Of a DNA stretch of 64,000 nucleotides, positions 1,043 to 63,292 are shown in pieces. The DNA is from Patiria pectinifera (lineage: Eukaryota; Echinodermata; Asteroidea; Valvatida; Asterinidae), in contig CM057130.1 in assembly GCA_029964075.1 (NCBI GenBank), positions 3,844,001-3,908,000 of the forward strand, read 5' to 3'. A program made the position numbers and the translations under genes. The notes below the pieces were generated by a model. That model did not search any database and had not been told where the DNA came from. It saw only the letters and a program-made list of their open reading frames with translations. Position 1 is the stretch's first letter. Each line of letters opens with the position of its first letter.

Positions 1043-1047
1043 AAATG

Positions 1048-28437: not shown

Positions 28438-28697
28438 TATAATATATTTCTAGACAAGAGATTGGGACTTGGCCTGTAAGTAAAGTACAATGAAAAGTGG
28501 TGTAGAGGACAAAAAAATAAAAGGAAAAGAAGAATTTCACCAATGTAGATGGAAAAAAGATCATATTAAACTTGAAGAGTTTTTAACACCTCAGACCTCT
28601 GGAATTGCAATCGGCTGGTTCTAGGTTCAGATCCACACCGTTTGTTCACTCATTGCTCATTATCTTCCCCCTCCCCCTGTACACACACACACACCAG

Positions 28698-28882
28698 GAT
28701 ATCATACACTTCTGCGGGAGGCCCTGAAGTCATATCAGGGTTTGTAGGGAAGGACCAACCGCGTCAGTTTACCGTGAGAAGACTCGAACCGCAGACCACT
28801 TACACCTTCGCTGTGGTGACCGTGAGTGGACCCGAGGGCGAGGAGACGTACAGCAGTCCGACAACCGCTATCGCAGAAACAG
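28698..28882 (+). CDS. FN3 domain 15 (type B), second half exon
   Basis: Acceptor accag ends at 28697 and donor gtatca starts at 28883; 185 nt, phase 2 in and phase 1 out. It restores AG|G (Arg) and continues 'ISYTSAGGPE', 'LEPQTTYTFAVVTVSGPEG', ending 'TAIAET'. The last 37 nt of coding sequence have a decayed copy upstream at 28401-28437. Confidence 0.85.
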
Positions 28883-28914
28883 GTATCAGGCAGGAAAAAC
28901 AATAATAATCAGGG

Positions 28915-29125
28915 TCGTAAACCCCGATATATTCCCTCCCCTCCCCCCTCCCCACAGTTTTAACCAGGGTGGGGGGGGGGATGGGCTACTGAATCATCCC
29001 CCCACTTTTTCTTTATGAGAAAAAAAAAAAAAACTGCGGATTTTGAGGTATTTTTTTAACATCCCAACAACCAAAATATGTATTCAACGGCACTGAAAAG
29101 TGGAGAAATAAAGTACCAAAGCTTT
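28915..29125 (-). mobile_element. CAGGGGCGTAAATC-type MITE, copies here and at 49485-49670
   Basis: 28915-29125 and 49485-49670 are the same sequence in opposite orientation: 'ccccacttttt', 'gcggattttgaggta', 'ttattgggatgtta', 'tactttgtttctccactttt'. One end reads CAGGGGCGTAAATC. It lies near the domain 15 exon here and in the domain 20-21 intron there. Confidence 0.6.
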
Positions 29126-29685
29126 TACGATATGCCATTTTGATGTAAGCGCGAGTATACATCTATATCCTGAAGATAACCATAACCATAAAGTAACTGT
29201 CAGTGTTTCTTAATCAGCGTCTTGCGTTTTAACCTCTTCTGAATGTAACTTATGTGACATGAAATAGCCGTTAACGTATGCACCCTGTAACCTGTGAGCC
29301 ACTACTGAGCTTTCCCTGTACAAAAACAGATGCAAATTCTACCCGTGTGTAATACTGGGCAATGTCTCTTCCTAACCAGTTTTGTTTAAAACCCTTAACA
29401 CCAGACATATCATTAGCACTATCACTGACCATAATAGCTTGCAATGTGAGCCCTAATGATCAATGCTATACAAGGACTCTGCTTCAGGCTATAAAAGACC
29501 TTTTGTTACTTGCCAATGAAGTTAAAATTAAGGAGCTTCAATGCACGTCACAAAGAAAAAGAACTCTCCTTTTTTTGCCGAAACTATTATCCTTTCAGTG
29601 CCAAACAGATGGGCACACAAGAAGAAGAACCTGAGGTACATGTATGTCAGCAATTGGTGGTCTTGTAATCAGGAAATCTTATTTA

Positions 29686-30157
29686 AAGGTGCCCCGTGGT
29701 AGAGTATATCATTTGCAGCTATTCAAAAAGTAACGGACAAAATTATTGTTGAAAAGCTTAATTGGGTCATTGATAGTAATGGCACTAAACTCCCTGTGAA
29801 ATTATTCCTTCTTGCATGCTGCCATTTTGAAGAAAACAATAAAAGCAGGTAATTTCCAAAGATGCCTCTAAAGAATAAGATGCATCATAATTCGTGGGTT
29901 CATTGCGTGACATCGCGTAGACCAGTCGGCTGAATGAGAACGTGTCCCAGGCACTGATTTTGGGCACAGTTCAAAACATGACTTGGCAACTTTTGAATTG
30001 AAATTGAAATCCTAGAATATTGTTTTCCTTGAATATTCAGCATCCACTGAGCTAAACCTTCATTAGGATAGTTGTTAACCCTTCTTACGATTTTGAGCAT
30101 TGTTGTTCATTGCTTCAAATGAATACACAAATGACAAATGATATACTCTACCTTTAA
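29686..30157 (+). mobile_element. AAAGGTAGAGTA-type MITE
   Basis: Begins AAAGGTGCCCCGTGGTAGAG and ends GATATACTCTACCTTT. It lies in the intron between domains 15 and 16. Confidence 0.7.
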
Positions 30158-30263
30158 CCATTCAGCACCGGTACTACATTGTATCACATTGTGTTAGCCG
30201 AGGTGGACTCCCTTTCCTCCCTATGTTACTGAAGGAGTCCAGGGTATGAAGTGCTCAAAACCG

Positions 30264-30842
30264 GGCGAAAAAATGTATGACCAATATTTTCAATATTTTT
30301 ACCTTTCCAATTTTTACGTCTTACTATTCTATGTGTCCTTATCTATTTAATCCGGGAGGTTCAGGAATTCCATATGCGATGCTGACCAAAGTTCATCAGG
30401 AAAATAAACGTTAAACTTGTACATTTTTGTAGACTCTTTTCATCAGTTTCTCACACGTACCGAGTCTAGTCGTACATGGCGTACGGCTGTGCAGCGTGAA
30501 TGCGCAGTGCGCACGCGCGATTTGCTTAGTAATCGCCCTCAAACGCATGCGCACTAACTTGTAGGCGCGTTCGTCTATCTAATGACCGGGCGTGTTTTCG
30601 CGACAGTGACCAAAAACATGTTTTGGCTTTGGTCATTGGTTGAGCGTTTTCGTGACTTCGGTTGGCTGGAGTGAGGTCACTGTTCCAACCAAAACTAAAC
30701 CATGGAGGGCTCTAGCATCACATATGGAATTCCTGAACCCCCTGGACCAATAGATCAATAGACACATAGAGTATGTAGGCATGAAATAAGCTTCCATAAC
30801 GAGGTAAAACGTAACAAAAATCTGGTCCAATTTTTTTTTGGG
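30264..30842 (+). mobile_element. Inverted-repeat element in the intron before domain 16
   Basis: Arms around 30325-30400 and 30700-30780 pair: CTATGTGTC, GGTTCAGGAATTCCATATG and GATGCT recur as complements. The centre is GC-richer with GCGCACGCGCG motifs. No ORF; superfamily not recognised. Confidence 0.6.
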
Positions 30843-30845
30843 GGG

Positions 30846-31185
30846 GGGCAAGGGCGGATCCAGAACACAATTTTTGGGGGGGGCCAAAAAAAATTTTGGT
30901 CCCCCCAAAAAAGTGGGTGAAAAAAATTACGGCGTGGGGTTCGGGGCCCGCTTAAGGGCCCCGAAATTTTTTTGGATTCTAGATGCTCTGTGGTGCGATC
31001 TGAGGCAATTTCTGACCACTTTAACCAATGTTTTTTTGAGGAAAAGATGGTGGTGTACTCATTGCCTGCCTTTATTGCGATGTCACATAAAAATTTTTTA
31101 AAATGGTTTCGTTTGGGGGGGGGGAGGCCATGGCCCCCTTTTGCCCCCCCCCCCTGGTACCCCCTGGGGGGGGGGGGGGGGGGTT
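30846..31185 (+). mobile_element. GGGCGGATCCAG MITE family, copy 2
   Basis: AAGGGCGGATCCAGAACACA start, interior 'gatgctctgtggtgcgatct', 'aaagatggtggtgtactcat', and G/C runs at the right end. Confidence 0.65.
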
Positions 31186-31305
31186 TACGTAGATAATTCT
31201 CATCCTGGACGTCAGTCGTAATGCAATGAAAACTTCATCCATCCTGGGCTATCTTTCAGTGCCTGCGAAATTTGAAAAGTTTAACCCTAAAGTGCCCAAC
31301 TTCGA

Positions 31306-34200
31306 GCGTTTTTATGCCCCGCGGCGAAGCCGAAGGGGCATACTGTTTCCGCCTTGTCCTTCCGTGGGTGGGTGGGTGTGTGGGTGTGTGGGTGTGTGTG
31401 TGTGTGGGGGGGTGGGTGTGTGGGTGTGTGTGTCCGGATAAATCTTGTCAGCGCGATAACTTGAGAAATACTTAACATATGAACTTCAAATTTGGTTTGT
31501 GGATTGTTCTTGGTAATCCTAAGAAGCCTTTTGCATTTGGGGCCAAAAGGCCAAAGGTCAAGTTCACAGTGGCTAAAACAATAGAAATCTTGTCAGCGCG
31601 ATAACTTGAGAAATACTTAACATATGATCTTCAAATTTGGTTTGTGGATTGTTCTTGGTAATCCTAAGAAGCCTTTTGCATTTGGAGCCAAAAGGCCAAA
31701 GGTCAAGTTCACAGTGGCTAAAACAATAGAAATCTTGTCAGCGCGATAACTTGAGAAATACTTAACATATGATCTTCAAATTTGGTTTGTGGATTGTTCT
31801 TGGTAATCCTATGAAGCCTTTTGCATTTGGGGCCAAAAGGCCAAAGGTCAAGTTCACAGTGGCTAAAACAATAGAAATCTTGTCAGCGCGATAACTTGAG
31901 AAATACTTAACATATGATCTTCAAATTTGGTTTGTGGATTGTTCTTGGTAATCCTAAGAAGCCTTTTGCATTTGGGGCCAAAAGGCCAAAGGTCAAGTTC
32001 ACAGTGGCTAAAACAATAGAAATCTTGTCAGCGCGATAACTTGAGAAATACTTAACATATGAACTTCAAATTTGGTTTGTGGATTGTTCTTGGTAATCCT
32101 AAGAAGCCTTTTGCATTTGGGGCCAAAAGGCCAAAGGTCAAGCCCAGGTCGAAATAAAATAGAGAAAAAACATATTTATTTCCTATTGAAAATACATTTT
32201 TTTAAAATCTATTTTTTTCCATTGTATTTCGACACCCCAAAAAATACCGAAAAAATAGAATAGTGAAAAAATATCTTTTTAAAAAATACAGGTAAAATAG
32301 AGGTAAAATAGGTTGCTATTTTAAAAAAAATAGCATGCTATTTAAAAAAAATTATGCTATTTTTAAAGAATACAAAATGGCGTCTGTCCAAACAACTGTT
32401 ATAATACGTGGACATACATGTTAATAGTACACATGTCCTTGTGGACAATAGGCATCTTTAGCAGTCCTCAAACATACGGTACATGAAGTGAGCAAGCAAT
32501 ATGACTGCATAAGAATGGAATAATTGAGAAATAATACATGTATGTCTATTACCATGAACAGTTATAATGCTGTGACAACACAGCGTCCAAACAATTAACA
32601 TACACATACATCATGCACCATCAAGTTATTAAAACAGTTTGGTTCAACATGCTACGGTTGTGCGTGCTTTTTCAGCAAAATACAGCTTGAAATGGTACAA
32701 GAATGTTACTCATAATTGTCCTGGAAAATCTACTAACCATGTGGTGCACTTGTCACTCCATTACAGTGATTTGGATGCATTTTAACCCCAGATATACTTG
32801 CCCCCATTGCACACATCTCTACTGCAGCTGTGCTTCACAAACGACTCTCAGAATGCAACTGACAAAATTCAAACTTGCCACACACACACAGGATGTTTAT
32901 CTGGTATGCAAATTAAGTGCTTGGCCTTCAGATTGTGTTGTACTGAGCATATGTCTACAAAATAGCCAAAAAATAGTCCATGGTTCTCATAAACATGTGT
33001 ATTTAGTGTCCAGAAAATAGACGAAAAATAGACTGTGAACCACACAAAAATGTCTAAGTCTCCAAAAATAGTCATAAAATAGCGTGCAGTTTTAAAAATA
33101 GAAATAAAATAGAGTGGTAACATGTACTCATTTTGACGCAATAGATATAAAATATATTTTGTTCCTATTTTCTAGGAGAAAATAGCTTAAAAATGTATTT
33201 TCAATAGGAAAAACATAGGATTTTGCCAGAGATTTTCTATGAGGGAGTTCACAGTGGCTAAAACAATAGAAATCTTGTCAGCGCGATAACTTGAGAAATA
33301 CTTAACATATGATCTTCAAATTTGGTTTGTGGATTGTTCTTGGTAATCCTAAGAAGCCTTTTGCATTTGGGGCCAAAAGGCCAAAGGTCAAGTTCACAGT
33401 GGCTAAAACAATAGAAATCTTGTCAGCGTGATAACTTGAGAAATACTTAACATATGATCTTCAAATTTGGTTTGTGGATTGTTCTTGGTAATCCTAAGAA
33501 GCCTTTTGCATTTGGGGCCAAAAGGCCAAAGGTCAAGTTCACAGTGGCTAAAACAATAGAAATCTTGTCAGCGCGATAACTTGAGAAATACTTAACATAT
33601 GAACTTCAAATTTGGTTTGTGGATTGTTCTTGGTAATCCTAAGAAGCCTTTTGCATTTGGGGCCGAAAGGCCAAAGGTCAAGTTCACAGTGGCTAAAACA
33701 ATAGAAATCTTGTCAGCGCGATAACTTGAGAAATACTTAACATATGAACTTCAAATTTGGTTTGTGGATTGTTCTTGGTAATCCTAAGAAGCCTTTTGCA
33801 TTTGGGGCCAAAAGGCCAAAGGTCAAGTTCACAGTGGCTTAAACAATAGAAATCTTGTCAGTGCGATAACTTGAGAAATACTTTACATGTGAACTTCAAA
33901 TTTGGTTTGGGGATTGTTTTTGGCAATCCTAAGAAGCCTTTTGCATTTGGGGCCAAAAGGTCAAGGGTCAATTTCACAGTGGCTAAAACAATAGAAATCA
34001 TGTATTTATTCTGAGATTATAGGGATTAGGGATTAATTCATATAAAACCTACAGAAGACACTAATGCTGTCAATGAATGTTCCATGTGACCAAGGTACAT
34101 GTACATGTAAGTTGATGTTAAAAGAGTGGTGTTATGTCATGGGAACAGTCACGGTTGCGGGGCATTTGTGTTTGTAAACACACCTGACTTGTTTTTTAAT
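31306..34200 (+). mobile_element. ATGCCCCGCGGCGAAGCC element with 145-bp tandem units, copy 2
   Basis: Same start hairpin, GT microsatellite (31365-31432), about ten 145-bp units and the same 3' module as copy 1. The array is interrupted at 32143-33247 by an A/T-rich insertion. Adjacent units are more alike here than in copy 1. It lies in the 6.3-kb intron before domain 16. Confidence 0.78.
32143..33247 (+). mobile_element. A/T-rich insertion nested in the 145-bp array
   Basis: The array breaks after GGTCAAG and resumes at TTCACAGTGG. The insert is dominated by AAAATAG motifs and has inverted ends (CCTATTGAAAATACATTTTT at about 32190, AAAAATGTATTTTCAATAGG at about 33189). No ORF of note. Confidence 0.6.
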
Positions 34201-35224
34201 TGTTCAAAATTCTGTAAAAAAAAAAAGGAAGTACGCTTTACTCACTAAATTTGTTGTTGTTGCTCTCTGGTATATCCTTGGTACATTAGAAAGTCAATAG
34301 TAGTCATGTACACAGTGCTACACCCTGAAACACTGTCCTGCACAGAGGGGAATTCCGCACTTTTTGCAGAAAATACAAGTGTCAGTGCTGCACTCTCTCG
34401 CAAGAACTTAAATGAAACAAATAAATACAGGTCGTACCTATTAAATAAAAATTATATTATTAGAAAAAGCGAAAGCGCCCCCTTGTGATATGATGCTTAC
34501 TCTACCTCGTACATGTAGGATGCACTGAACCAATTCAAGCCCCATTGAAAATAGTGTAAAATCAACAAAGTTCAGGGCCAAATAACATGCAAGCCGACAT
34601 CACTGGGGTTTCTCAAACAAAAATTGAATTATTGTCTTGTACTTCATCTTTTCATTTCTTTTCAATTTTGGGTAGACTAGCCGATTACATTTTTAAATAT
34701 TCACACCAAAACAAAATCACCTCCCGAAAAGTGATAATTCCCAAGCCTGCATGTAGCTGTTTTACAAGTGGCATCCTTCCACTTTCTCAGGCAAATAGGA
34801 CCCATTTTTCAACCGTAATTTTATCAAGCCTGCCCTCAGATGGAAGCCCAAAAACCAGGGAGTTGATCCTCGGCTACATTTACACAATTCCACCGTTTTT
34901 TTAAGCCAAACGGTCTCTATTTTCAAAAGAAACTGTGGGGTCACTTTTTATGCTAATCAGCTCGCGTAGAAATTCTCACTTGAAAAATAGTTCACTGCAC
35001 CCTGTACATGGTTTGGCGATTTTAAGTACAAACATTACCTCGTACATGTACAAGGTTGGCACTTCAAACTAAAAAATATACCTCGTACATGTATGACTTT
35101 GGCACTGAAAGAGTTAAAAGTGCTGAGGAATCCCTAAACCAGAGAGTGTATGGGGAGAAAAAACAAGCAGGGCAGTCTAGGTCTCGGCACACAGACTAAT
35201 AAATTAATGTGAATTTATCAACAG
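34200..35224. other. Intron before domain 16, unannotated part
   Basis: Several CTCGTACATGTA motifs (34506, 35040, 35082). No coding sequence or complete repeat element recognised. Confidence 0.4.
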
Positions 35225-35467
35225 GTCAACAGCTCGCTATCCAAGATACAACCACCACCACCATCACGGTCTTCTGGGACGACGCGTCCAGCCTCGTCGG
35301 CTTCACACAATACACTGTCAGCATCACGCCTAACGAAGGAATTCCTTCCATCAACTTGGAAAATAGATTGGTTGTCTTCTCTGGTCTGACACCGGGGAGA
35401 GAGTACACCATCCGTGTAGTGGCAGTCGGGGTGCCAGACGTGTCTGGGGAAGTCACAGATCGAACTT
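35225..35467 (+). CDS. FN3 domain 16 (type A), whole-domain exon
   Basis: Acceptor caacag ends at 35224 and donor gtaagt starts at 35468; 243 nt, phase 1-1. Core 'TTTTITVFWDDASSLVGFTQ', 'FSGLTPGREYTIRVVAVG', ending 'VTDRT'. The preceding intron is 6.3 kb and carries the largest tandem-repeat element. Confidence 0.89.
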
Positions 35468-35546
35468 GTAAGTCACAGAATTAATTGATTTGATTTTATA
35501 GAAGTCCCAGTCCTATAGTTATTTTGCATGATCCTACAGAGGCAGT

Positions 35547-35899
35547 GGCACAATTGCACTCCGCAGTGGCACAATTGCAGAATACCCCGCCACTCAATCT
35601 AAGCCGGCGACGAGGTCACGGCTGATTGACCTCAATAAACCTTCTCAGCGCTACTTGTATGTACTCTGCGTCATGCTCCACTGCACTCCACTCCGTAACC
35701 GCGTAGCCGCCAACAGGGTAGTTGGTTTGGACTTATAATTTTTTCAGCAACTCCCATTCCTTTTGTGTTGCTTCGTTCTCAAAAAATGGACCCCCACTCA
35801 GTATCCGGTAGCTGGTGTTTCTTTTCCAGGGATTCCAACCTCGTAGCCAGTGATTTTAGGGGTGTATTTCCGAGTGGCGGGGTATTCTGCAATTACTCC
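35547..35899 (+). mobile_element. hAT-like MITE in right duplication copy only
   Basis: The inverted repeat AATTGCAGAATACCCCGCCA at about 35572 pairs with GAGTGGCGGGGTATTCTGCA near 35872-35891. GAGGCAGT flanks both sides (35539-35546, 35900-35907). The left duplication copy at about 2146-2165 reads through without it. Confidence 0.75.
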
Positions 35900-36721
35900 G
35901 AGGCAGTTTGGTTTACCAGTCTGTTTAAGTGTTTAGGTAATATACAACATTTGCTTTTGCAAATTGCATTTCAGAAGTGGATGGATGTCAGCTAGTATTT
36001 TATAGCAAATATCCCTACACTGAGCTGTTTAAAGTTTCGTGCTCATGCTGGAAAAACCAAGAATGTTCTTGCTGCCATGCTTTTCTTGATGTATGGTTCT
36101 ATGGCGTTTAACTTCAGACGAAATTATTTGAAATTTTTCTTGAAAGTGACAGTACACTTAATACAATGATTTCACAGGATGCTTGAGACTATTATTCACT
36201 TACAGTCAAGTAAGGTATTTCATAATGATTTGGTAGTTTTGTTTTGAGATGTTTGCAACTGTTGTATATTACCTTTAAGGTTGCTTTTCTAATAGCATGA
36301 TATGTTTTTTATTTGATTTTGTGATGTTTCTTTTTAAATTGATTTAATAATATCAAATTGAAGTCAAATTTCAAGCAAGTTTTATGATAATGCAAATGAA
36401 GCCTGTGTCACGCGTGAATCCAGTTTATGATGATCATGTGACAAGAAACTTACAAACTATGTTCTGTCATTCATTAGCACTTTTTAAAAAAAATGTTGGA
36501 GTATCGACTTCTAAGTTTTCCTTTTTCAAATTGGAAAATTGTAAAAGTGATGTATAATATGTAGTGATTACAAATATTTTATGATAAAATCATGTAGTTG
36601 ATGACAACAATAGGTAGTTGTTGATGCAAAAAAAAATACCTATAATTTTGGATGCAGATTTTGGTCCGAGCTCTTTTGGTTTTTTTGGTATGTTGTACAT
36701 TTTACCATCATCGGAATTTCT

Positions 36722-37012
36722 CAAACTGATCTGTGGTCCAATGGTTACAGTGTTTAATTCATGTGCCATGGTACGTGGGTTCGAACCCTGACAGGGACCA
36801 TGGTGCTTGCGTTCTTAGCCAAGACAATTGACTACAAATGCCTCTCTCCACCTAGGAGTATAAATGGGTACCTATGAAGGTAGAGACCAGAATGCGTTGA
36901 TCTTGAGCTGCTGTAGGAAACTGGTCTCATGGCCTGATGAACTGTGGTAATAATTGCGAAGCTCTTTGATAGTTTTGCTGTAACGCGCTATATATTTACC
37001 ACATGATTATTG
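36722..37012 (+). mobile_element. tRNA-derived SINE
   Basis: Box B GGTTCGAACCC at about 36779, then the same body as the SINE at 12021. It sits just upstream of the domain 17 exon; I see no equivalent upstream of domain 1. Confidence 0.75.
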
Positions 37013-37044
37013 TTATCTGTTTATTTGTTGTTTTTTCTTTTCAG

Positions 37045-37148
37045 TCCCCAATCCACCTGTGAATCCACACACTCCCTTGGGTTCTGCCATGCCTGTCTCT
37101 CTCTCCGTACGCTGGACCCGACCTAATGGTGATGTCACTGGATATAGG
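37045..37148 (+). CDS. FN3 domain 17 (type B), first half exon; paralogue of domain 1
   Basis: Acceptor tttcag ends at 37044 and donor gtaagc starts at 37149; 104 nt, phase 1 in and phase 0 out. It encodes 'VRWTRPNGDVTGYR'. It differs from 3156-3259 at three positions, one of which changes an amino acid (N to H). Confidence 0.86.
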
Positions 37149-37196
37149 GTAAGCCCTCAGTGTTGGTTGTCAATGTCAGGTTTGTTTTTGTTATCA

Positions 37197-38448
37197 ATCT
37201 TCATTGAAGTTTACCCATTGGTCAAGGCAACAGTGTTTTCACGAAGTGACAAAAACCTCAATATCAAGCAAAAAGATCATTCCGAGATAATCGCCTTTGA
37301 AGTTAACCATTTTTTTCAAAAAACCTTTTCGACTAGTTTTAGTTACCTTTTCGACTAGTTTTTAGTTATGGATTTAAAAAATTCTTGCATTGTCAAGTAA
37401 CGTATGCTTTGTTCTTTGCTAATTCAAAGTTGTTTTTTAGAAGTCTCTCTTAATTAAACTGTAATTCATTAATAAAGATCAATAAAAGTTTTGTTCACTT
37501 CGTGAAAACAGCAAAACACAGAGGCCTCACTATTTTGTCCCATTAAGTTGTACACACTCTTTGTCACTTCGTGAAAACATAAAACGTTCTAAGAAATTGT
37601 TACTTTTGCGCGTCTGACGTCACTGAAGTACACACACGTCTGTTCTTTATCAACATTGTTCAAGGCGTGCGCGTCCAATCCCGTCCAATCCCAACCTAAC
37701 GTGTGTAGAGAAATGCATTATTCCTCTGGCCCTGCTAACGAGGTAAGTTTGTGTCACTTCGTGAAAACAGAAAAACACAGATTTTAAGCATTTTGTCAAA
37801 TTTTTGTTTACGATAATTACAAAAGTAAACAATATTTTGCTTTGAAAGTCAGCCAAATTCTTCCTTTTGTCAAATGCAATAAATTTGCCGGCAAACATTG
37901 CGAAGGTACTGCCAAAAACTGCCCAGCTTCTTTCTCAATGTAGTGCCCGAAACTTGCCCAAGCATTCAGAAAGATCATGGATTCATCAGTGAAAAAAATG
38001 CAATGTAATACAAAGTAGTACATGTGCTAATCAATTACATTTTTGGACCAAAAAAGGAAAAGTGACCGAAGCAGGATTCCAGGCCGTTACCTGCAATACT
38101 TGCTGGTGATCTATTTGTTGTGCCTACCATCTATGTCTCAGTGGTCTCCCTATTGAAAATATATTTTGGGGGGGGGGGGTGGCGTAGGCATCAGTTAAAA
38201 AACCATGAATAAAGATATGCCATGTGGACAAGGATCATGCCCTAAATGTTGCAAAACAGCAGCAGATTACTCAGAGGAAACAGCAGATTACTCAGAGAGC
38301 ATACAGCTGTTCTGAATTTCTAATAATCGAAAAAGCCAGTAGAGGAAACTATTTATTGAACTCATTTGGTTGAACAAAGAAAATTAACAGAGGCAGTGTG
38401 CCTAGCCTCAGGAATACATTTTTATCTAGGCAGACATGAAACAACTAG
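37197..38448 (+). repeat. Insertion with TTCACGAAGTGA motifs
   Basis: Relative to the left copy, about 1.25 kb is extra here. GTTTTCACGAAGTGAC at about 37236 and GTCACTTCGTGAAAAC at about 37494, 37563 and 37752 are inverted and repeated. No coding sense is seen. Confidence 0.55.
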
Positions 38449-38477
38449 TGTTTCCCTTCAGAAGTCTTACTTCCCAT

Positions 38478-39613
38478 CAGTGTTGGAGCAAAGGCTTTGA
38501 CCCTCAAGGCCAAGGCCAAGGCCAAGGTCCTGTTTTATGAAATGCAGACCACTGATATAGAACTAATTATAGTCACATGAGTGACACATCATCACGTAAG
38601 GGCGGATCCAGAACACAATTTGGGGGGGGGGGCAAAGAAATTTCGGCCCCCCCCCAAAAAAAGTGGGTCAAAAAATTACGCCTTGGGCTTCAGGGCCCGC
38701 TTAAGGGCCCTGAAAAAAATTTGGATTCGAGATGCTCTGTGGTGCGATTTGAGGCAATTTCTGACCATTTTAACCGTTGTTTTTTGAGGAAAAGATGGTG
38801 GTGTACTCATTGCCTGCCTTTATCCCGACGTCACTTAAAAAGAAATGGTTTCGGTGGGTTTTTTTTGGGGGGGGGGGAGGGCATGGCCCCTTTTGGCCCC
38901 CCTGGATCCGCCCTTATGATCACGAATTGCTAGTTACGAAGAACAACATTTATTTAATTGCAATCAACATGCTCGCATAGGCCTACACCATTTTATGACT
39001 GCACTGTATATATTAAAGTATAAGTTCAGGTTTTCAATATGGTTTAACTAAACAAATTAATGATTTACTTCTATATTGACACTCAATTCTCCCAAGTGTA
39101 ACAAAAGGGGGATCCAAGAAACTGTAAACCCTTGGCTGGGCCAACATGGTCAGAAATATCAGCATTATCTAAAACAGATACATGCAAATCTTTAGCACTT
39201 ATCAGGGAGACATATACAACCAATCAGATTTATTCAATAGTTATATGCAATTAAAGTGATCATCTCATTAGCCCCACAAGTGTACGGAATATTTTTGCAG
39301 CAAATCTACTACAATGGTAACAAAATGTGATGCCACAAAAGTGGAAGTGTGCCCAACACACAAATCTATAGGGTGCTTCCCTCCTCCATGGTAATACGAT
39401 AAAAATGGTAACAGCAAAATTTTGAACAGAAAAATGCAAAAATCTATGGGCCTTGAAGAGCCTTGACTCAAAATTGCAAGGCCCTGAACCCTCAAGGCCA
39501 AGGCCAAGGCCAAGGCTTTTGCCCTCAAGCCTCGAGGCCAAGGCCAAGGCCCTAAAATCCAGCCTTAAGGCAGCCTTAAGGCCAAGGCCCAGCATCAAGG
39601 CACTACATCACTG
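38478..39613 (+). mobile_element. hAT-like element with CAAGGC arrays at both ends
   Basis: Ends CAGTGTTGGAGC and ...GTAGTGAT... (complement of TACATCACTG). Flanks CTTCCCAT (38470-38477) and CTTCCTAT (39614-39621) agree at 7 of 8. Subterminal (CAAGGC)n runs occur at both ends, and a complete MITE (38597-38916) is nested within. The left duplication copy has no insertion at this point. Confidence 0.72.
38597..38916 (+). mobile_element. GGGCGGATCCAG MITE, copy 3, with complete ends
   Basis: Ends TAAGGGCGGATCCAG and CTGGATCCGCCCTTA are perfect inverted repeats. Flanks TCATCACG (38589-38596) and TGATCACG (38917-38924) match at 7 of 8 bases, consistent with an 8-bp hAT-type target duplication. 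It is nested inside the element 38478-39613. Confidence 0.75.
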
Positions 39614-40135
39614 CTTCCTATGCATTTTGTAATGAGTAGGAAATGCAAGTTGTGTGCTATTTCAACACAAGGGGCATTAGGAATCATGTACAATAATATT
39701 GGCTGTGTTTTACCCTCCTCAGTCCAGCAAAATCTATCAAAACATTAAAGTGGATTTCACGTAGAGTATATCATTTGTCCTTTGTGCAAATTGTTTTCGT
39801 TTGAAGCAACACAAGTGCTTAAAATCTAAAGAAGGGTGCTTTACAGCTAAAACCTGATGTAGTTTTAGCTCAGTGAATGTTGTATATTCCGAGAAAACAA
39901 TATTCTAGGATTTCGATTTTAATTCAAAAGCTGCCGAGTCACGTTTTCAATTGCGCCAGAAATCGGCATCTGGGACACGTTTTCGTTTAGCCGATTGCAG
40001 CTGCACGATGCTGCACACTGAACCAGCAAATAATTGCAAACGTGTGCCTCATTTCAACGCTAGCACAAACCCATTCACGGCTTCACTGAATTAAAAACAA
40101 ACTACTAATGGAACATTCCAATAATGTGTCTTTAG

Positions 40136-43100
40136 CAATGTTGTAGTTGAGACCAGATAGTCTGAGACCGAGTCCGAGACCGAGACCTGAAGTTGCGAGA
40201 CCGAGACCAACCCCTTCAAGGAGGACCGAGACCGAGACCGAAATGGTCCGAAACCGAAACCAAGACCGAGACCGCGGATAATAAGTAACAATAATCTAAA
40301 TAAAAAACAAGACACTAATTACAGCTGAACAGTCTGTCCTTGAGATGATGATGTTGTTGGGGATGTGAAGGAAGTGATTGAAAGCTAGGAATCACTTGTA
40401 CCTGCTTAATTGTGTCATGCAAGTGCTCTTCATGTTTGCTTCATTATCATACCATAAATTACAACATGGCAACAGAATGTGTTATTGTCACAATCAATTA
40501 CAAAAATTGGAAACAACCTAATTTAAAGAAGAGCAAAACCTAATTTAATGAACTCCATATATTGTTGCCACTTTTTTTTTAAATACACGGTGAGTCAAAA
40601 AAAGCGGAACCCAAACCCCAAAAAATTATTTTTCATATTTGAAAAAATACATAGCACTAAAAATTATAATGACTGGAAAGCCAATTTCACAAGCTACTTT
40701 CAGATGAAAAAATTACTGAAATTGCTCAATCTGTTCGAAGAATATCACCATTTAAACACAATGACCCTAAAACCTATCTCGTCCAAAAATGCGATTTCAA
40801 GAATTGTCGTCACAGTTGTCTTCAAGCATCACCAGCAATAAAACCTCAGTTTAAAAGTTAACAATATTTAATAAATTCCTTTTGAAGGCCCGTCTATTAA
40901 AAAGGTGGATTTTATCAATCATATTGTTTGCCTAACCAGGGTTAATAAAGACATTATACAAATGTTGAATGCTTCGAGTTGTGTAATACAACTATTATCC
41001 TGAGGTGATCCATGGACATTCTATTTTCCCGAGGCGAAGCCGAGGGAAAATAGAATGCTCCATGGATCACCGAGGGAGGCTAGTTTTACTTCACCAAGAG
41101 ATAAAGCATTCAATATTTGTTTTATAACACTTCGCCCACAGATTCTGCTTGGTTTTAATATTTTAAATTATTTAAATCTGAACACAGTTGAAATAAACTT
41201 AAATTGCAATACAAAATTGGTGGAAAATGTATTTCTCTCTTCCAGACTATCCCTTTTGCGAAATGTTTGAAACCAACTCTGTGGCGCGCTCTCTTTGGAA
41301 CAAAACGCGCTACGCGCAACGCGCACACCAGCATGCATTTGCACACAAGTACCGCGCTGTGGAAATAGTACTTTGGTTGCTAATGGTATTGTACTTTTGG
41401 CCGTGCACAGAAAGATAGCAAAAAAATAGAAAGTATCATGTGACTCGCTCTCGGCCAATCAAGACACAGAATCTGCGGGTGAGGTGTTATAATATGTAGT
41501 AGTACTGTTCTTGACAGTTTATGAAATAAGTATTCTGTTTCATTTTCTTTGTTGTTCCAAACAGTCAAAACACCCAATAAATTGCTGTTTTTGGACGAGA
41601 CTAGCCTTGACCAAGGCTATCAGCTTGTTGCCATACGAGCTTGTTCCCGCGCCGCACACCGTGCGCGCCACGACACAATCACAAGTTGTACTATACCGTT
41701 AGCCCCAACGAACCTTGCGTGTGATTTGTGTGCATGTACTTACGCCCCACACACCCTTCCGCGAACAGCCGTACAGTAAGTCGAGGCGGAAGATAGCCTT
41801 GACGCAACTGTGTATGCTGAATATGATAATTAGTACGCGCTATGGTAAACAGTCTTCTCTCATTGGATAACGGCTGACAAAAAATGAATATTTATTAAAT
41901 TGCATAATACGACCAAAGGTTTATAAACCAGTCGGCCTGTGCTAACAATAATTATTGTAAAACACCCCCTTAAAATCTTAAATAATAGTAGAATAATATT
42001 TATAAAGTTACACATAGTTTGGGTCGAAAATGAAATGAAAAGGATGAAAAATTAGACCTTCAAAACACGGCAAACGGTACAAACCGATGTCACCGTGCAC
42101 AGAGGCTACGTTGGGGCCGTCCACTGTAGGCACTGGTCCGGCGGGCGCCATGCAGTGAGACACGCTGCGCTTTCACATTCAGCAGCCAAAAAAAGCGCTC
42201 ACACTATTAAGTATTTCTACCGCTGACTTTTGGGGGGTATTACTTCTAAGCTGTCAAGGGGATATGGGAAAAAATTATCTCTCCTTCAGCAAACTTATTC
42301 CGTAAGACTGATTTTAACTTGTATGAACAACTTATAAGTTATATGTCGTATGTACGACATGTAAGTTGATGTTAAAAGAGTGGTGTTATGTCATGGGAAC
42401 AGTCACGGTTGCGGGGCATTTGTGTTTGCACACCTGACTTGTTTTCACCTAAAAGTAGCTTATGAAATTGGCTGTCCAGTCATTATTATTTTTGGTGCTA
42501 CATATTTTTTCTTTAAATATGGAATATATTTTTGGGGGTTTGGGTTCCGCTTTTTTTGACTCACCCTGTATTAGTTAACTACTTTAAAGTGTAAATCTGA
42601 TGAAGAAACTCTAACTTTAGAGTATGACAATTTTTACTAATTTTTTGCAATGTTGAAACATGACAAAAGTAAAAAGTTAAAGGTGGATGTTTTATCAAGC
42701 CACCCTTTGGTTTCAGCTATGACTACTACAGGATATTTAAATACAACTTTAATTCTACATTGGGCCTCCTTGTAAACCTGATTTCAAACAAATTTGGAGC
42801 CCAAAAATATTGATTTATTATTGAAATTTCAGTCAAGGAATATAGACTTGTACATGTACACCCAAAAGTTGAGAGGTGGTAGCCAAATATGGATTCTTCT
42901 GACTGGGATTTTGCTTTTTGAGGAATAATGGGGTACTTCAAATGAGCAGCCAGACAATCGAGTCTCATCATACACTCTCATGGCAACAGTGAGTGGTAAC
43001 TGGTAAGAGTGTGTGAATTCATTGCTGGAAAATAAGGTAGAAAAATGTACTCTTTCTCCAAAATACTATCTCAAATTAAAGAGAAGATTGGGGTCAAAAA

Positions 43101-43417
43101 CGTCACTAATTTGGAACATCTCATTTATTTTAAAAATAAAAAAATGCTTACGTTAACGCCAACAGGGGTGGGCTAATAAACTATAAAATGGTTGGCCCTT
43201 ATTGCATGAATTGGTACATAAATACTTTGCTTTATGTGCGCGACTCAAATTTCGCCATTTTGGCTGGTCTCGACGACGCGAGACCAGTCAAAATATCGAG
43301 ACCAAAGGGAACCTAGACCAAGACCACACTGGCTCCAAAACCAAGACCCAGACTGAGACCAGCAAAAAGTGGTCTCGAGACCGAGCAGACCGAGACCGGT
43401 CTCGACCTAGAACACTG
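40136..43417 (+). mobile_element. hAT-like element with GAGACC arrays at both ends, 3.3 kb
   Basis: Ends CAATGTTGTAGTTGAGACC and (complement of right) CAGTGTTCTAGGTCGAGACC. A perfect 8-bp GTCTTTAG flanks both sides (40128-40135, 43418-43425). Subterminal GACCGAGACC runs occur inside both ends. The paralogous intron at about 3876-3886 shows the uninterrupted site. No transposase frame survives; the middle is a mariner-like insertion plus other debris. Confidence 0.82.
40586..42568 (+). mobile_element. TA-flanked TIR element nested in the hAT-like element
   Basis: Ends CACGGTGAGTCAAAAAAAGC and GCTTTTTTTGACTCACCCTG, with TA on both sides; the inverted arms extend about 130 bp ('aagccaatttcacaagctac' against 'tagcttatgaaattggct'). 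TA duplication suggests Tc1/mariner. Inside are another TIR pair (about 41128 and 41468), a palindrome (41020-41078) and the solo 3' end of the 145-bp element (42359-42440). Confidence 0.72.
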
Positions 43418-43679
43418 GTCTTTAGACACATCTTTAGAAATGACTTCCTTTTATTTTTTCCTTCAAAACGACAGCATAATTTCACAGGGAGTTAGGTGTC
43501 ATTACTGTTTTTAAACCTACTTGAGTATGCTTTTCAACAATGATTTTGACAGTTACTTTTTGGAAAGCTGAAAATGATATATTCTACCTTTATAGAAAGA
43601 GGTTTGATAATGAAATGACACAAACTTGTCAAAATAGAATCGTTCTATTTCTATTTTTTTTTTTGGTATGATCCATCAG

Positions 43680-43854
43680 GTCTCCTACTTTGCCGAGGGC
43701 AACTTGAAGCTCACATCAGAAATCATCAGCCAGACGAACTTTGACCTGACCCAGTTGTTTCCCAACACGGCCTACACCATTGAGGTCGTCACAGTGAGTG
43801 GGGTCGGCAACTCTGAGCGTGTCAGCGAACCGGCCTCTTACACCCAGTCAACAT
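43680..43854 (+). CDS. FN3 domain 17 (type B), second half exon; paralogue of domain 1
   Basis: Acceptor atcag ends at 43679 and donor gtaagc starts at 43855; 175 nt, phase 0 in and phase 1 out. It reads 'VSYFAEGNLKLTSEIISQTN' and ends 'YTQST'. It differs from 4125-4299 at 7 nt (T to N, D to E and S to P in protein). The intron between the two halves is 6.5 kb, against 0.87 kb in the domain 1 copy, because of insertions. Confidence 0.87.
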
Positions 43855-46707: not shown

Positions 46708-46959
46708 CTTCCTTGGGTGTAGAGATTCGTCGGTCCACATTCCTGGGTTTGACGTGGGAGAGCGTGGGCAGCGATATCCAGCAATATCAGCTGGAGTACA
46801 GTCCTAACGAGGGATCTCCACTGTCTCCCATCACGGAGGTCACCAACCGGCAGATATATATTGGGGCGTTGACTCCCGGCACAGAGTATACCTTTGACTT
46901 GTACGCCTCTGCCAACGGGATCCGAGGGGATCTGATCATCTCCCAAGTTGTGCAGACAT
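46708..46959 (+). CDS. FN3 domain 18 (type A) with RGD in FG loop
   Basis: Acceptor ttgcag ends at 46707 and donor gtgagt starts at 46960; 252 nt, phase 1-1. It reads 'VEIRRSTFLGLTWESVGSD', then 'LTPGTEYTFDLYASANGIRG' followed by D-L-I, ending 'VVQT'. The RGD sits between strands F and G, the position of the integrin-binding RGD of fibronectin FN3-10 and tenascin FN3-3. Binding is inference. The exon is tandemly duplicated as domain 20. Confidence 0.88.
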
Positions 46960-46994
46960 GTGAGTAGCTGTTTACCTATAGACTCTGTGCACGA

Positions 46995-47008
46995 CCAGTA
47001 GGTGGCGC
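46995..47008 (+). promoter_or_regulatory. CTCF-like motif, copy 1
   Basis: CCAGTAGGTGGCGC fits every position of the CTCF core consensus CCASYAGRKGGCRS. It lies 36 nt inside the intron after the RGD exon of domain 18. CTCF is present in most bilaterians. Occupancy here is unproven, and a 14-base motif can occur by chance. Confidence 0.35.
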
Positions 47009-47588
47009 ATTTTTACTCTTGAGCCCCATGTGAGAGGCATCACCATGTGCATTCAAATGCATTCAAATGTCCCTCCCAGTGGTCCCCCAACTCTCCCTTT
47101 GTAACCGTTGAGGGGGTATTTGTGCATAGAGTCAATAGACTTACCGGACGACCAAAATTAGAAGCTTTAACCCACAGATGGTATGCACCCATTGCTCAGG
47201 GAAACAGTACAGTAGTCATTCTGCTCCTTTTGTTTGTGAATACTCCACTCCTCATGAGTAATTTCATTCATTTAATCCACATTTATTTCCAGAATAAAAT
47301 TACTTTTGTAAAACATGTGACATGTAATAGATCAATACAAAATAATAAAAAGGAAATCAATAGAAGAGAACAAAAAACAAGATCGATATGTAAGAGTTGC
47401 TTTGCTTTATCAAATGGCAGTAATAGAGGCATGTTCGGAAGCCAGATTTTTAAAATGTTATGTAAAGAATGTCAGCACGTTCAAAGCTAACTTGAAACTG
47501 AGCAAAAAAAAGAAAGGCCCATTTTCTGCAAATCAAACAGTTTCTCAACCACATCTTTTTTCTTCTAATCTATCCAAATACAATCCAG

Positions 47589-47864
47589 CGCCTGCACATG
47601 TTGGCATATTTGACATCACCACGACGGAGACCACCATAGACATCTCATGGCAAAAACCTGTGGGTCAAGTCGACTCTTACGTTATCTCCTACACCCCTGG
47701 AGGTACCGAGGAGGTCACTGTCACCAATACTCGGTACACAATCATGAACCTTCAGCCAGGCACAACCTACCAGATCACTGTCAGAAGCAAGCGAGGTGCC
47801 TTCTACAATTACGATCTGGACACCAACGTCCAAACAGTGACAACATTTCCTCAGCTCAATGCAG
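47589..47864 (+). CDS. FN3 domain 19 (type B), whole-domain exon
   Basis: Acceptor tccag ends at 47588 and donor gtatta starts at 47865; 276 nt, phase 1-1. Core 'ITTTETTIDISWQKPVGQVD', 'LQPGTTYQITVRSKRG', ending 'FPQLNA'. If the donor is not used, the frame stops three codons later ('GIM' then TAA), giving a protein without the membrane-anchor tail. No AATAAA lies close behind, so splicing to domain 20 is the preferred reading. Confidence 0.84.
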
Positions 47865-49153
47865 GTATTATGTAAAGCAGAATTATAGAGTAAAAAAGAT
47901 TAGAACATATATTTTGAACAACGGAATGTATTTTTGAAGATCGAATAATTTAAATCTAATGCATTTTAAAACATAATGTATTTTGAAACATCGAACGTGT
48001 ATTTTTACAACCCGAATGCATTTTCTAAAACCGAATGAAACTTTACAAACCGAACATCTTTACAATTTGAATGTTTTTTCCAAAACCGAATGAAATTGTT
48101 CAAACCTAACATGTCTTTACAACTTGAATGCATTTTCTAAAACCGAAAGAAATTTTACAAACCGAATATCTTTACGATAATCAAATTGCATTTTGTTCGA
48201 CATAAAATATCCGCCAGTTTCGCATTTGGCACGTGTGCGTATTCAACATCTGAAAAAGCATTCCATCTTTTTGACTGTGGTCGACTCCCTTTGGCTTCGC
48301 GTACTTGAAGACAGCTGAAGTACACATGACTCGTCTCCGCTCTTCAAGAACAGCAATGAAACATTGCTCCCATAGAAAAGTAAACGATGCAGTGGTGTAT
48401 CCCGCCGCCGTGGCATTAAATTTGCATCGCGCATGCAGCAGTAAGAAATGTCAGACTTTTAAAGAAAATGTCCTTATTCATAGAAAGTTTCAGAAAAAGT
48501 AGCATTTGAAGAAACGTTGAAGGAAATCCATAATTTGAAGGAAATTCAAAGAAACATCAAAAATATCAAAAGTTTAAAAGAACATAATTTAAAAGCCCCC
48601 CCAAAAAAGCCATTTTGGGGGCCTGTATACTAAGAACACAGGGGTCAAGACTAAGGATTGAGGGCCGCTTCCATGGCCATGGACAGCCAATACGAATGAG
48701 CTGAAGCTCCACAATCTGCATACAAATATATGAAAGCCAGGGCGAATTTTGAGTGTATAAGGAGGCTTTGAAGAGTCCATCTTTGAGAAACTGATAAACT
48801 GAATCTGTTAATTTCTGTTTTTTCTATTTATATCGTAATGTCTTATTTCAAGGTCACAAAAACCTCTAAAAAACAAAAAACAATGCTCTACCACATTGTA
48901 GCTGCGTCCTTCACAATTCAGCTTTTCAGCTGCAAGTAAGAATGATTAGCCCCGCCCCAAATAATTATAACAACTGTTTTAGAATGTGTTCCGAAACCGC
49001 CAAAACTGAAACAAAACAGTCCAAGTAAAAGGATAACAAGTTTCAGGGGTCTCCCAGTTGTAGGTAGTAATATAAGGAAAGAAATCATGTAAGTAGGCTC
49101 TAAGTGACAGAGTTATGGGCACTTGTCACCACATTTTTGTGTCCATCTTGCAG
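47865..49153. other. Intron between domains 19 and 20
   Basis: A run of short degenerate units 'aaaccgaatg', 'catttt', 'ctttacaa' at about 47900-48190 looks like a decayed tandem repeat. The last 80 nt are the duplicated approach to the RGD exon. Confidence 0.45.
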
Positions 49154-49405
49154 CTTCCTTGGATGTAGAGATTCGCCGGGCCACATTCCTGGGTTTGACG
49201 TGGGAGAGAGTGGGCAACGATAGTCAGCAATATCAGTTGGAGTACAGTCCTAACGTCGGACAACCCCCATCTCCCATTACAGAGATCTCCAACCGGCAGG
49301 TTTTTGTTGGGACTTTGACTCAGGGCACAGAGTATACCTTTGACTTGTACGCCTCTGCCAACGGGATCCGAGGGGATCTGATCACTTCCCAAGTTGTGCA
49401 GACAT
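49154..49405 (+). CDS. FN3 domain 20 (type A) with RGD in FG loop
   Basis: Acceptor ttgcag ends at 49153 and donor gtgagt starts at 49406; 252 nt, phase 1-1. Near-duplicate of domain 18. About 15 residues differ elsewhere in the domain, but the 17 residues from 'YTF' through the RGD to 'DLI' are identical, hinting at constraint on the loop. Confidence 0.88.
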
Positions 49406-50633: not shown

Positions 50634-50992
50634 TGCCTGCACATGTTGGCGTATTTGATATCACCACGACGGAGACCACCATAGACATCTCATGGCAAAA
50701 ACCTGGGGGTCAAGTCGACTCTTACGTCATCTCCTACACCCCTGGAGGTACCGAGGACGTCACTGTCACCGATACTCAGTACACCCTCATGAACCTTCAG
50801 CCCGGCACAACCTACCAGATCACTGTCAGAAGCAAGCGAGGTGCCTTCTTCAACTACCGTTCGGACACCGAGGTCCAAACAGCGACAACAATGGCCCAGT
50901 CTAACGCCGGTAAACCAATGGTTTCTAACATGTCATTTGGGTTGTTCATGGGGATTCTGTTGGGCATGGGAATAATGTTTCTGGTTTGGTAA
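50634..50992 (+). CDS. FN3 domain 21 (type B) plus C-terminal GPI-like tail; terminal exon
   Basis: Acceptor tccag ends at 50633; the exon runs to TAA at 50990-50992. The FN3 part is a near-copy of domain 19 ('TTTETTIDISWQKPGGQVDS', 'LQPGTTYQITVRSKRG'). Then follow small residues 'AQSNAGKPMVSNMS' and a hydrophobic end 'FGLFMGILLGMGIMFLVW' with no cytoplasmic tail. Small residues, a short spacer and a terminal hydrophobic stretch are the layout of a GPI-attachment signal; a single-pass membrane end with no tail is the alternative. The point where domain 19 splices (G|GTATT) is G|GTAAA here and is apparently read through. Confidence 0.85.
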
Positions 50993-51040: not shown

Positions 51041-51046
51041 AATAAA
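51041..51046 (+). terminator. Polyadenylation signal AATAAA of the FN3 gene
   Basis: AATAAA lies 49 nt after the TAA stop of the terminal exon, in an A/T-rich 3' UTR. It is the first canonical signal after the stop and supports 50634-50992 being the last exon. Confidence 0.6.
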
Positions 51047-60870: not shown

Positions 60871-61747
60871 GGGTTGAATTTTTTGGGTGAAAAATGTGAG
60901 TTTTTACTCACCAGCCTGGCGTTGCCGATCTGACGAATACAGCGGTCATGTTTATGTGTGTTTACATACGTTGCGTGTGCGCTGATCTTCGTGTGACCTC
61001 AGCAGGTCAACTCAACATTCGGCTCGACCGTTTGGGATGGAGGGGAGATTGTATGCTTTGCATCGCGAAACAGTTCATGTACATCATGATGTATGTCATT
61101 TTGGCGCGCTGAATACGCTGCGCTGTGTCATTACAAGTTGTCAGTTTTGGTGGACTGTTTACTAATGGATCTTTATTATTTCCGTAAATAAGGGCCACAC
61201 TTGGAGCATGTACCCGAAAAAGTAGACATTATGAACGTTGTGTCAATAACAACCTCACGCGTAATTGTGATAGAAAACCTTTCAACGTGTTTTCTATTCC
61301 CTTCCCATTATATTAAGTACTTACACGTTAAGAATACAGTGAATATTCTATTCAACGAATCAATCGGCATGCCCAATAAATGCCTCCTTTTGGAGAGACA
61401 ATTATGGAGGCTGATATTATGTTACCATTTAGCAAATCCAGACACACACAAAAACAAACCATTCAGTTTAAAAAAAAAAAAAAAGGTCTGGGAACCAGAT
61501 CAGGAGATTTTAGAAGCTCCTAGATGTCCGTGGCAACCTACATGTACAACCTTAATTTATTTCAGACAACTGTGTCATGGTTAACTGAAAAGTTTCATGG
61601 TACATGTGTATGTCGCTAGGCAAAGTTGAACCTGCAAAAGTATGTGAAAATAAACAGCCTTTCATTTTTGCTATTCTCTTTCATTTAAGTCTCCAGGTTC
61701 TCAGCTGTGATTGAATCAACCTGTGTGCACTTATCGGGATGTGAGTG
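60871..61747. other. Upstream flank of the zinc-finger gene
   Basis: Contains GC-richer sequence at 60900-61150, then A/T-rich sequence with a poly-A run near 61470. Any 5' untranslated exon or promoter would lie here, but no TATA box or clear splice pair could be assigned. Confidence 0.35.
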
Positions 61748-63292
61748 ATGACATCAGCATCAACAGTCATGAATATGGAAATGCATACCCCCACTGGAAT
61801 GAGCAGTGCCACGCCCATTGCCGTCTCGGCTGATGGTTTGTCAGGAACTAGCGATGGACACATGCTTGTGTTCCCAGACGATTACACAAACAGCAACATT
61901 ATTCCCACCCCCAACGGAATCCCCATGACCAGCCCGCATGACTTGCTGGGAACCATTGGATTACCGGCATTGAGCCAGGCTGATATCACCCAGGGCACCA
62001 GTGTACTCTCAGGCAGCGCTGAGCAAAGCGGTCACTTTGTCCAGAAGTCGACCGCTTCCGTTGGAGTCCAAGTCAACTTATGTTGCTGTGCCCATCGGGG
62101 CTGTAATCCCGAAGACATTATCTCAGTACCCCAAGTTGATAAAACCGATATTCTTAACAACGATGTTCACTTTCAAGAAAATCCTGAGCATAGGCTTTCA
62201 AATGATGGTGAGGCTAATGCAGGAAAAACAGACCAAGACAAAGACCTGCTCGCTATCGCAACCCCAAAACTGTTGCTCAAACACAGCTATAAAGATATGA
62301 AGAGGAAAGACAAGAGGCGCCTGAAGGCAGACAAGCCTTCTGCATGCAGGAAGCCCAAACAGCAAAAGGTTCTGACTCGTAGGAGCACCAAATCAACCCT
62401 AGAGCGTCGCTACCTCTGCGAAGGATGCGGGATAAGATTTGTCCACAAGGCAACGTACGATCGTCATCTACAAGAGCTTCGGGGCAAGGCAGCCGAGAAC
62501 AAATGCTCACACTGCAGTGCCACGTTCACCTACTTGTGCAAACTGAAGCAGCATATCGCGGCTAAGCATCCTGACCTGATATCTGCTCCAGCCAGAGAGC
62601 GGCCCGTCATCTGCCACATCTGCGGCATCCAATTACAAACGAGCATCAGTATGACCAAACACATGCGTATCCACGATGGTGACAAGCCGTTTCTGTGCAA
62701 GTACTGCCCCAAGGCTTTCAGATGGCACACGGGGCTCGAGTATCACGAGCGAATCCACACTGGCGAACGGCCGTTCAAGTGTCCGAATTGTCCCAAGGCG
62801 TTCACGAACCCGTCGGATATGGCCCGGCACCAGACTGTCCACACGGGCAAGAAACCTCATCTGTGTCACCAGTGCGGGAAGGGATTCACTCAAAGTGGAA
62901 CGCTCAATGCTCACATCAAAAGCAAACACAGTCAGCTGACTAATTCTCTCAATCCCAGTCTGGCATCAAACCTAAGCATTATGAATACACCCTGCACTGA
63001 GCCTATCACGATGCCTACTAATCTGAAACAGCCCGACATACATGTATGCCATTTCTGTGGGAAGAACTTTCCCCAGGATCACATGCTGGACGCCCATATC
63101 CGGAAATCGCACCAACAGCCGCTCCCGAACATGACACTGGAGGCCGGTTTGCGCTGCGGGACCCTGGAAGAAATGAAGCTACAATTGGCGACATGTAGCG
63201 CTTTGAACCAAAACCAGGTTTTCAATATGTCATCATGCGTACCCACAGAAAGAGAAATTGCTGAGGTGGTTGTCAACATGCTTGCACAATGA
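61748..63292 (+). CDS. C2H2 zinc-finger protein, 514 aa, single uninterrupted ORF
   Basis: An in-frame TGA at 61742 precedes the first ATG at 61748, and TGA at 63290-63292 ends the frame. Residues 1-180 are Ser/Thr/Pro-rich and acidic in places, with a Cys-rich motif 'CCCAHRGC' near residue 112. A Lys/Arg-rich stretch at about 184-213 ('MKRKDKRRLK', 'TRRSTK') looks like a nuclear localisation signal. Fingers follow: one degenerate (about 224-242, the second zinc His missing), then six C2H2 fingers at about 252-274, 289-309, 317-337, 345-365, 373-394 and 434-455. TGERP/TGKKP-type linkers join fingers 3 to 6; a 40-residue gap precedes the last. Tandem C2H2 fingers with these linkers typically bind DNA, so a nuclear regulator is likely. 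No KRAB, BTB or SCAN domain is visible. I do not recognise a specific orthologue. 5' untranslated exons may lie upstream. Confidence 0.88.
   Translation: MTSASTVMNMEMHTPTGMSSATPIAVSADGLSGTSDGHMLVFPDDYTNSNIIPTPNGIPMTSPHDLLGTIGLPALSQADITQGTSVLSGSAEQSGHFVQKSTASVGVQVNLCCCAHRGCNPEDIISVPQVDKTDILNNDVHFQENPEHRLSNDGEANAGKTDQDKDLLAIATPKLLLKHSYKDMKRKDKRRLKADKPSACRKPKQQKVLTRRSTKSTLERRYLCEGCGIRFVHKATYDRHLQELRGKAAENKCSHCSATFTYLCKLKQHIAAKHPDLISAPARERPVICHICGIQLQTSISMTKHMRIHDGDKPFLCKYCPKAFRWHTGLEYHERIHTGERPFKCPNCPKAFTNPSDMARHQTVHTGKKPHLCHQCGKGFTQSGTLNAHIKSKHSQLTNSLNPSLASNLSIMNTPCTEPITMPTNLKQPDIHVCHFCGKNFPQDHMLDAHIRKSHQQPLPNMTLEAGLRCGTLEEMKLQLATCSALNQNQVFNMSSCVPTEREIAEVVVNMLAQ

Follow-up and report, generated by a model that had tools for sequence, protein, structure and literature searches.

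Organization of the locus

The stretch of Patiria pectinifera DNA analysed here (64,000 nucleotides; contig CM057130.1, positions 3,844,001 to 3,908,000), referred to as the window, carries on its plus strand a gene coding for a long array of FN3 domains and, further downstream, a C2H2 zinc-finger open reading frame. Seven-digit coordinates are those of the contig and all others those of the window. Once spliced, the exons of the 21 FN3 domains in the window form one frame of 1925 codons in which the sole stop is the last codon. Because these domains join into a single open frame, the numbers 18 and 20 of 21, assigned by the original prediction to the two domains bearing an RGD, are right for the window. 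On the contig, 40 FN3 segments lie on the plus strand between 3781399 and 3894989. The features of the window are as follows.

3156..43854, plus strand: 21 exons coding for FN3 domains 1-17 (window part of the gene)
46708..46959, plus strand: exon 18, FN3 domain with RGD; AG/GT borders, phase 1-1; Pfam fn3 E 3.3e-9; AlphaFold2 mean pLDDT 88.4
46923..46931, plus strand: codons of the RGD in domain 18 (residues 72-74; modelled where strand G begins)
47589..47864, plus strand: exon 19, partner ('B') type FN3 domain; its 3' end and donor, GCTCAATGC(A)GGTA, are common to the zinc-finger antisense strand
49154..49405, plus strand: exon 20, second FN3 domain with RGD; AG/GT borders, phase 1-1
49369..49377, plus strand: RGD codons of domain 20
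50634..50992, plus strand: exon 21, last FN3 domain ('B' type), tail and stop codon, treated as the terminal exon
50903..50992, plus strand: GPI-signal-like tail NAGKPMVSNMSFGLFMGILLGMGIMFLVW-stop; 50903-50993 matches antisense zinc-finger coding DNA
51041..51046, plus strand: AATAAA, poly(A)-signal-like hexamer starting 49 nt past the stop
61745..63292, plus strand: C2H2 zinc-finger open reading frame, 515 aa, stop to stop
61881..61971, minus strand: antisense of the zinc-finger coding region matching the tail

After domain 12 the gene continues with domains 13-17, which are a second set of a group also placed ahead of domain 1, and then with an RGD domain, a B domain, an RGD domain and a B domain before it ends. 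Domains 18 and 20 score 37.3 and 28.2 bits against Pfam fn3 (cut-off 25).

Several repeats accompany the array. Domains 1 and 17 (3156-4299 and 37045-43854) are recent duplicates, with dS of 0.08 and dN of 0.03, and the introns after them contain related tandem-repeat arrays (4338-5965 and 43915-44363), the first of which is open in three frames. A minisatellite of about 145 nt lies at 20915-21927, 31440-32142 and 33246-34003, in two introns (after domain 12 and before domain 16). A large self-complementary inverted repeat (59059-59804) separates the FN3 gene from the zinc-finger gene.

An inverted paralogue with a phosphatase domain

In the surrounding contig the RGD exon also occurs in each of two arms inverted relative to one another, at 3.78-3.84 Mb (plus strand) and 3.72-3.76 Mb (minus strand). 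Between them the arms share 93.2% identity over 25.2 kb, in 17 aligned pieces that each exceed 500 bp, and the 194 kb stretch spanning them contains no N. The right arm continues into the window in the order of the left gene, up to domain 12. This left paralogue lies head-to-head with the window gene on the opposite strand; it repeats the FN3 exons of the window gene in unchanged order and adds a TM-like exon and a tyrosine phosphatase domain at its end. Past the match to domain 12 it goes on for 71 further FN3 segments, to 3590739, and counts 102 above threshold in all, these being stop-free segments and not domains. Its TM-like exon lies at 3584927 (FDVMWFIYPLVAVIIIIILVLIIFCCVWRGW). PF00102 is matched in two frames (E 7.8e-27 and 6.1e-17), with the motifs VVVHCR and AGVGRSGTF on two exons and the P-loop HCR/AGVGRSG intact across the exon border. 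Read down to 3578001, the left paralogue thus combines the FN3 array, TM-like exon and PF00102 of an R3 receptor tyrosine phosphatase. Its phosphatase region (3578001-3584000, minus strand) reads WGD instead of WPD, with the P-loop intact.

The window gene resembles such a receptor in its extracellular FN3 array (21 domains in the window). Neither a TM helix nor a phosphatase was found after it: the three plus frames of 50990-61746, that is the 10.7 kb downstream of exon 21, gave no Pfam match at E 0.01, and no Pfam domain was found on the minus strand of 51500-61401. Between the arms, a search with strict settings for a signal peptide exon found none in 3757000-3775000 (minus strand) or 3765000-3781700 (plus strand).

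Duplication and conservation of the RGD exons

The original prediction held that two tandemly duplicated FN3 domains share an RGD sequence near the membrane-proximal end of a predicted surface protein, and that the identity of 17 residues around it suggests selection for an integrin-binding loop. The descriptive part of this was borne out. Domains 18 and 20 each contain GTEYTFDLYASANGIRGDLI, the identical run is in fact 20 residues long, 67 of 83 residues agree overall, and the RGD is doubled close to the C-terminus of what is probably a surface protein, in the eighteenth and twentieth of 21 domains.

At the nucleotide level, the alignment of the two exons with their flanks covers 361 sites and shows 36 mismatches: 28/170 in the 5' part of the exon, 2/82 in its 3' part, and 3/53 and 3/56 in the flanking introns. 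The two longest stretches of unbroken identity, 46878-46938 (61 nt) and 46941-46990 (50 nt), lie on either side of a single codon with two mismatches, and the latter passes the splice donor to extend 31 nt into the intron. A run of 61 nt is mildly unusual (P = 0.03 for random placement of 36 mismatches in 361 sites).

Two further copies of the RGD exon lie about 106 and 134 kb ahead of exon 18, in the inverted arms, and the RGD is kept in 4/4 copies found (3584001-3918000, covered less carefully below 3624001). Among these four copies the variable sites amount to 4/53 in the upstream intron, 39/170 in the 5' part of the exon, 1/60 in the RGD block, 3/22 in the remainder of the exon and 4/50 in the downstream intron. 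The block shows less variation than the 5' part of the exon does (1/60 versus 39/170, p = 4e-5), without being clearly less variable than the intron flanks (1/60 versus 8/103, p = 0.16). The 5' part itself (46708-46877) is more variable than the intron flanks (39/170 versus 8/103, p = 0.0015), for which relaxed evolution, diversifying evolution or conversion may be suggested.

The identity between copies is insufficient to argue for protein selection, because the identity extends to the synonymous sites of the block and to most of the neighbouring intron sequence. The block carries no silent differences, and after one differing codon the identity resumes and runs into the intron. The dN/dS comparison that the prediction had proposed gave about 0.48 for exon 18 versus exon 20 as a whole, and within the block of 20 codons (60 nt) there were 0 differences over 15 synonymous sites. 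Values were about 0.67 for exon 19 versus 21 and, over the whole exon, about 0.42 to 0.84 for the other five pairs of RGD exons. Positive selection on the part coding for strands A-E was considered and is not claimed: whole-exon dN/dS is about 0.42-0.84, and the value above 1 in the 5' part of the left-right pair of RGD exons rests on few changes. A shared DNA history or gene conversion would account for the block about as well as protein selection, which stays possible because of the retention of the RGD in all copies found.

The motif itself is not far beyond chance. When residues were shuffled among the F-G segments of the 20 domains that remain once domain 20 is left out as a copy, the chance of an RGD in at least one of them was P = 0.053. 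Across all FN3 segments found in both paralogous arrays (11,264 aa), five RGDs are seen versus 1.6 expected, and four of these belong to copies of a single exon. The doubling of the RGD reflects a single duplication and so provides no independent evidence.

Structural position of the RGD

AlphaFold2 models of domains 18 and 20 reached mean pLDDT values of 88.4 and 88.9; they were built from shallow alignments (17 and 9 rows) of a single gene, without a positive control. In both, strand F spans residues 59-68, the turn is N69-G70 and strand G spans 71-82, with mean pLDDT over residues 71-80 of 92 and 93. Since the RGD is residues 72-74, it falls at the start of strand G. The FN3 fold is upheld by Pfam fn3, by the models and, for domain 18, by Foldseek, which aligned its model to FN3 entries with TM of ~0.87, up to about 0.88. 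The exposed F-G loop expected of an RGD-loop FN3 domain is not seen in the two models (shallow alignments); instead, a two-residue Asn-Gly turn joins the strands and the RGD lies within strand G. The prediction of two duplicated FN3 domains with an RGD in the F-G hairpin region is supported, and the loop position is not. Burial of the RGD in a strand had been named as an outcome that would speak against the prediction; both models do place it in a strand, and strand alternation suggests that R72 and D74 probably face outward and G73 inward.

The likeness to known integrin-binding domains was revised as well. Fibronectin 7-10 is the closest solved sequence, and FN3-10 aligns across the RGD region, with the RGD of the window domains two residues later and not at the fibronectin place. 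An RGD at the place of tenascin FN3-3, which the prediction had assigned to the window domains, sits in another domain and in the paralogous gene: the B-type FN3 domain of the left gene (3755622-3755879, minus strand) reads KRGDFF. Aligned with tenascin FN3-3, it has the RGD in register, no gap in strand F and 34% identity over 77 columns. Elsewhere the B copies read KRGAFF (exon 21 and the right-arm copy) or KRGAFY (exon 19). If there is integrin binding at this locus, the left B domain would be the better candidate. The RGD of domains 18 and 20 may best be regarded as inherited: it stands where strand G begins, was duplicated along with its exon, and may or may not contact integrins.

A GPI-like tail matching antisense zinc-finger DNA

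Exon 21 continues past its FN3 domain into the tail, laid out as NAG-KPMVSN-MSFGLFMGILLGMGIMFLVW-stop with a mean Kyte-Doolittle value of 2.06. GPI-attachment signals take the form of a hydrophobic stretch without residues after it, and the small-residue site, the short spacer and the hydrophobic stretch running to the stop of a GPI-anchored protein can all be recognized here (judged by eye). The shape of the tail therefore makes it GPI-signal-like.

Comparison of the tail (50903-50993) with the antisense strand of the zinc-finger region (61881-61971) revealed 74 of 91 nt identical, ungapped, in the same frame and with the same stop. This match scored 97, whereas none of 800 randomised tails, half of them shuffled (400) and half Markov-generated (400), scored above 41. 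A search of the genome (613.5 Mb) with exon 21 found at least five places, of which only the zinc-finger site has the tail in common. A dispersed repeat is not supported as the nature of the tail, the sole other genome match found being the zinc-finger gene (counts are lower bounds). Judged by this alignment, the relation between the tail and the antisense zinc-finger DNA is one of shared ancestry.

The B exons of the right arm and of the left gene end ACAACAG|GTGAGT and GCAACAA|GTGAGT, at the very point from which exons 19 and 21 diverge. In exon 21 the zinc-finger match begins 12 nt beyond the position of the paralogous exons' splice donor. The end of exon 19, GCTCAATGC(A)GGTA, agrees with the zinc-finger antisense strand at 13 of 14 positions (score 23, reached by 0 of 2000 shuffles, the best of which scored 22), and past these first 14 nt the intron after exon 19 shows no residual tail, as 77 of 300 shuffles attained its best score. 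The 17 differences between tail and zinc finger, of which 5 and 6 are synonymous in the two frames, leave the direction of transfer undecided by themselves. The direction rests on the paralogous exons, with the zinc-finger gene as the likely donor. The same substitutions show little codon constraint and hence do not demonstrate that the tail has been selected as a signal. A donor-like site in the tail, GCCG|GTAAAC, scores 5.3, versus 4.3 for the donor of exon 19, which makes splicing to an unseen exon possible.

Origin of the window gene

On the sequence comparisons above, we consider it probable that the FN3 gene, whose 3' part lies in the window, is an inverted and truncated paralogue of a giant R3-like receptor tyrosine phosphatase with an FN3 array, and that it carries a captured GPI-like tail and is devoid of catalysis. 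More tentatively, since we hold it possible and a little short of probable, the inverted duplicate would have lost the splice donor of its last FN3 exon and captured at this B exon about 91 bp of antisense zinc-finger DNA, acquiring with it an attachment site, a GPI signal and a stop, and a phosphatase receptor would thereby have become a GPI-tethered, catalytically silent, RGD-bearing surface protein. The simplest order of events would begin with the capture; the RGD-B pair would next have been duplicated, and the first B copy would finally have been spliced anew at GCAG|GT. The product would be a membrane-tethered or shed ectodomain that does not signal by dephosphorylation and that may share, or compete for, the extracellular ligands of the phosphatase receptor; we infer a decoy or tethered role, in which the RGD would be a passenger or a minor contact.

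Other explanations were weighed against the same evidence. An integrin-binding loop under selection, doubled near the membrane for avidity, would be in keeping with the RGD in all four copies found, with the contrast between the near-invariant block and the variable A-E part (1/60 and 39/170, p = 4e-5), with the probable outward orientation of R and D, and with fibronectin 7-10 as the closest solved sequence, FN3-10 being aligned over the region. We nevertheless find it unlikely, as the intron flanks are nearly as invariant as the block (8/103 versus 1/60, p = 0.16), the block is free of silent differences between exons 18 and 20, both models put the RGD in strand G, and one RGD somewhere is expected by chance in arrays of this size.

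An assembly artefact, in which two haplotypes were joined and the 'paralogue' is an allele of one gene, appears very improbable: the right gene ends differently (domains 13-21 and the tail), the left gene, beyond its match to domain 12, carries its 71 further FN3 segments, TM-like exon and phosphatase, and no N interrupts the 194 kb stretch, even if marine invertebrates can be highly heterozygous and the arms are 93.2% identical over 25.2 kb. Somewhat less unlikely, though still doubtful, is that the tail serves as an ordinary transmembrane helix at the C-terminus, or that it is read-through without use, with splicing normally continuing at GCCG|GTAAAC. The score of that donor-like site and the presence of a donor at the same place in exon 19 speak for it; the lack of a further Pfam-domain exon in the 10.7 kb downstream, the AATAAA 49 nt after the stop and the lack of cytoplasmic residues past the hydrophobic stretch speak against it.

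Reading the gene as a truncated phosphatase paralogue with a captured anchor replaces the 'integrin loop' by statements that can be tested, namely that the RGD is inherited and lies in a strand, that the gene is a phosphatase-less cousin, and that its anchor may come from an antisense coding exon. If true, the last point would be a traceable case of a surface protein acquiring its anchor at once, with the unmodified paralogous exons adjoining as the 'before' state.

Comparison with known systems

Among the matches listed in a literature search, none described this locus or an antisense-derived GPI signal. R3-type phosphatases (PTPRB/PTPRQ/PTPRJ/PTPRO/PTPRH) are like the paralogue in having an extracellular FN3 array followed by a TM-like exon and a phosphatase, and unlike the window gene, in which neither is seen up to the zinc-finger gene and which ends in a GPI-like tail; the 102 FN3 segments of the left gene also set it apart from these phosphatases. 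One study describes FN3 receptor phosphatases from deuterostomes, among them two sea urchin R3 sequences with altered WPD loops, WVD and WTD, to which the WGD of the left gene may be compared (PMC5336234).

Fibronectin FN3-10 shares with domain 18 the FN3 fold and an RGD after strand F, but in domain 18 the RGD comes two residues later, after a tight N-G turn, and is modelled in strand G. The tenascins, which in lancelets comprise FN3 arrays with several RGD domains, resemble the locus in their long FN3 arrays with recurring RGD-bearing domains (PMC11401434). Vertebrate TNC FN3-3 has its RGD at the same place as the left gene's B domain, whereas the B domains of the window have RGA in place of RGD. 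Other tenascin features were not found: the three plus frames of 50990-61746 held no fibrinogen-related domain after the FN3 array (0 Pfam families), and no EGF domain appeared in 1-3302, in two introns or in two of the three plus frames of one further stretch (0 families).

Recent de novo C-termini arising through loss of a stop codon are known (PMC4494051). The tail is comparable to these in that a long-existing gene acquires a C-terminus from DNA previously not coding for it; it differs in that here a splice donor was seemingly lost, and in that the acquired piece matches a neighbouring coding exon in antisense.
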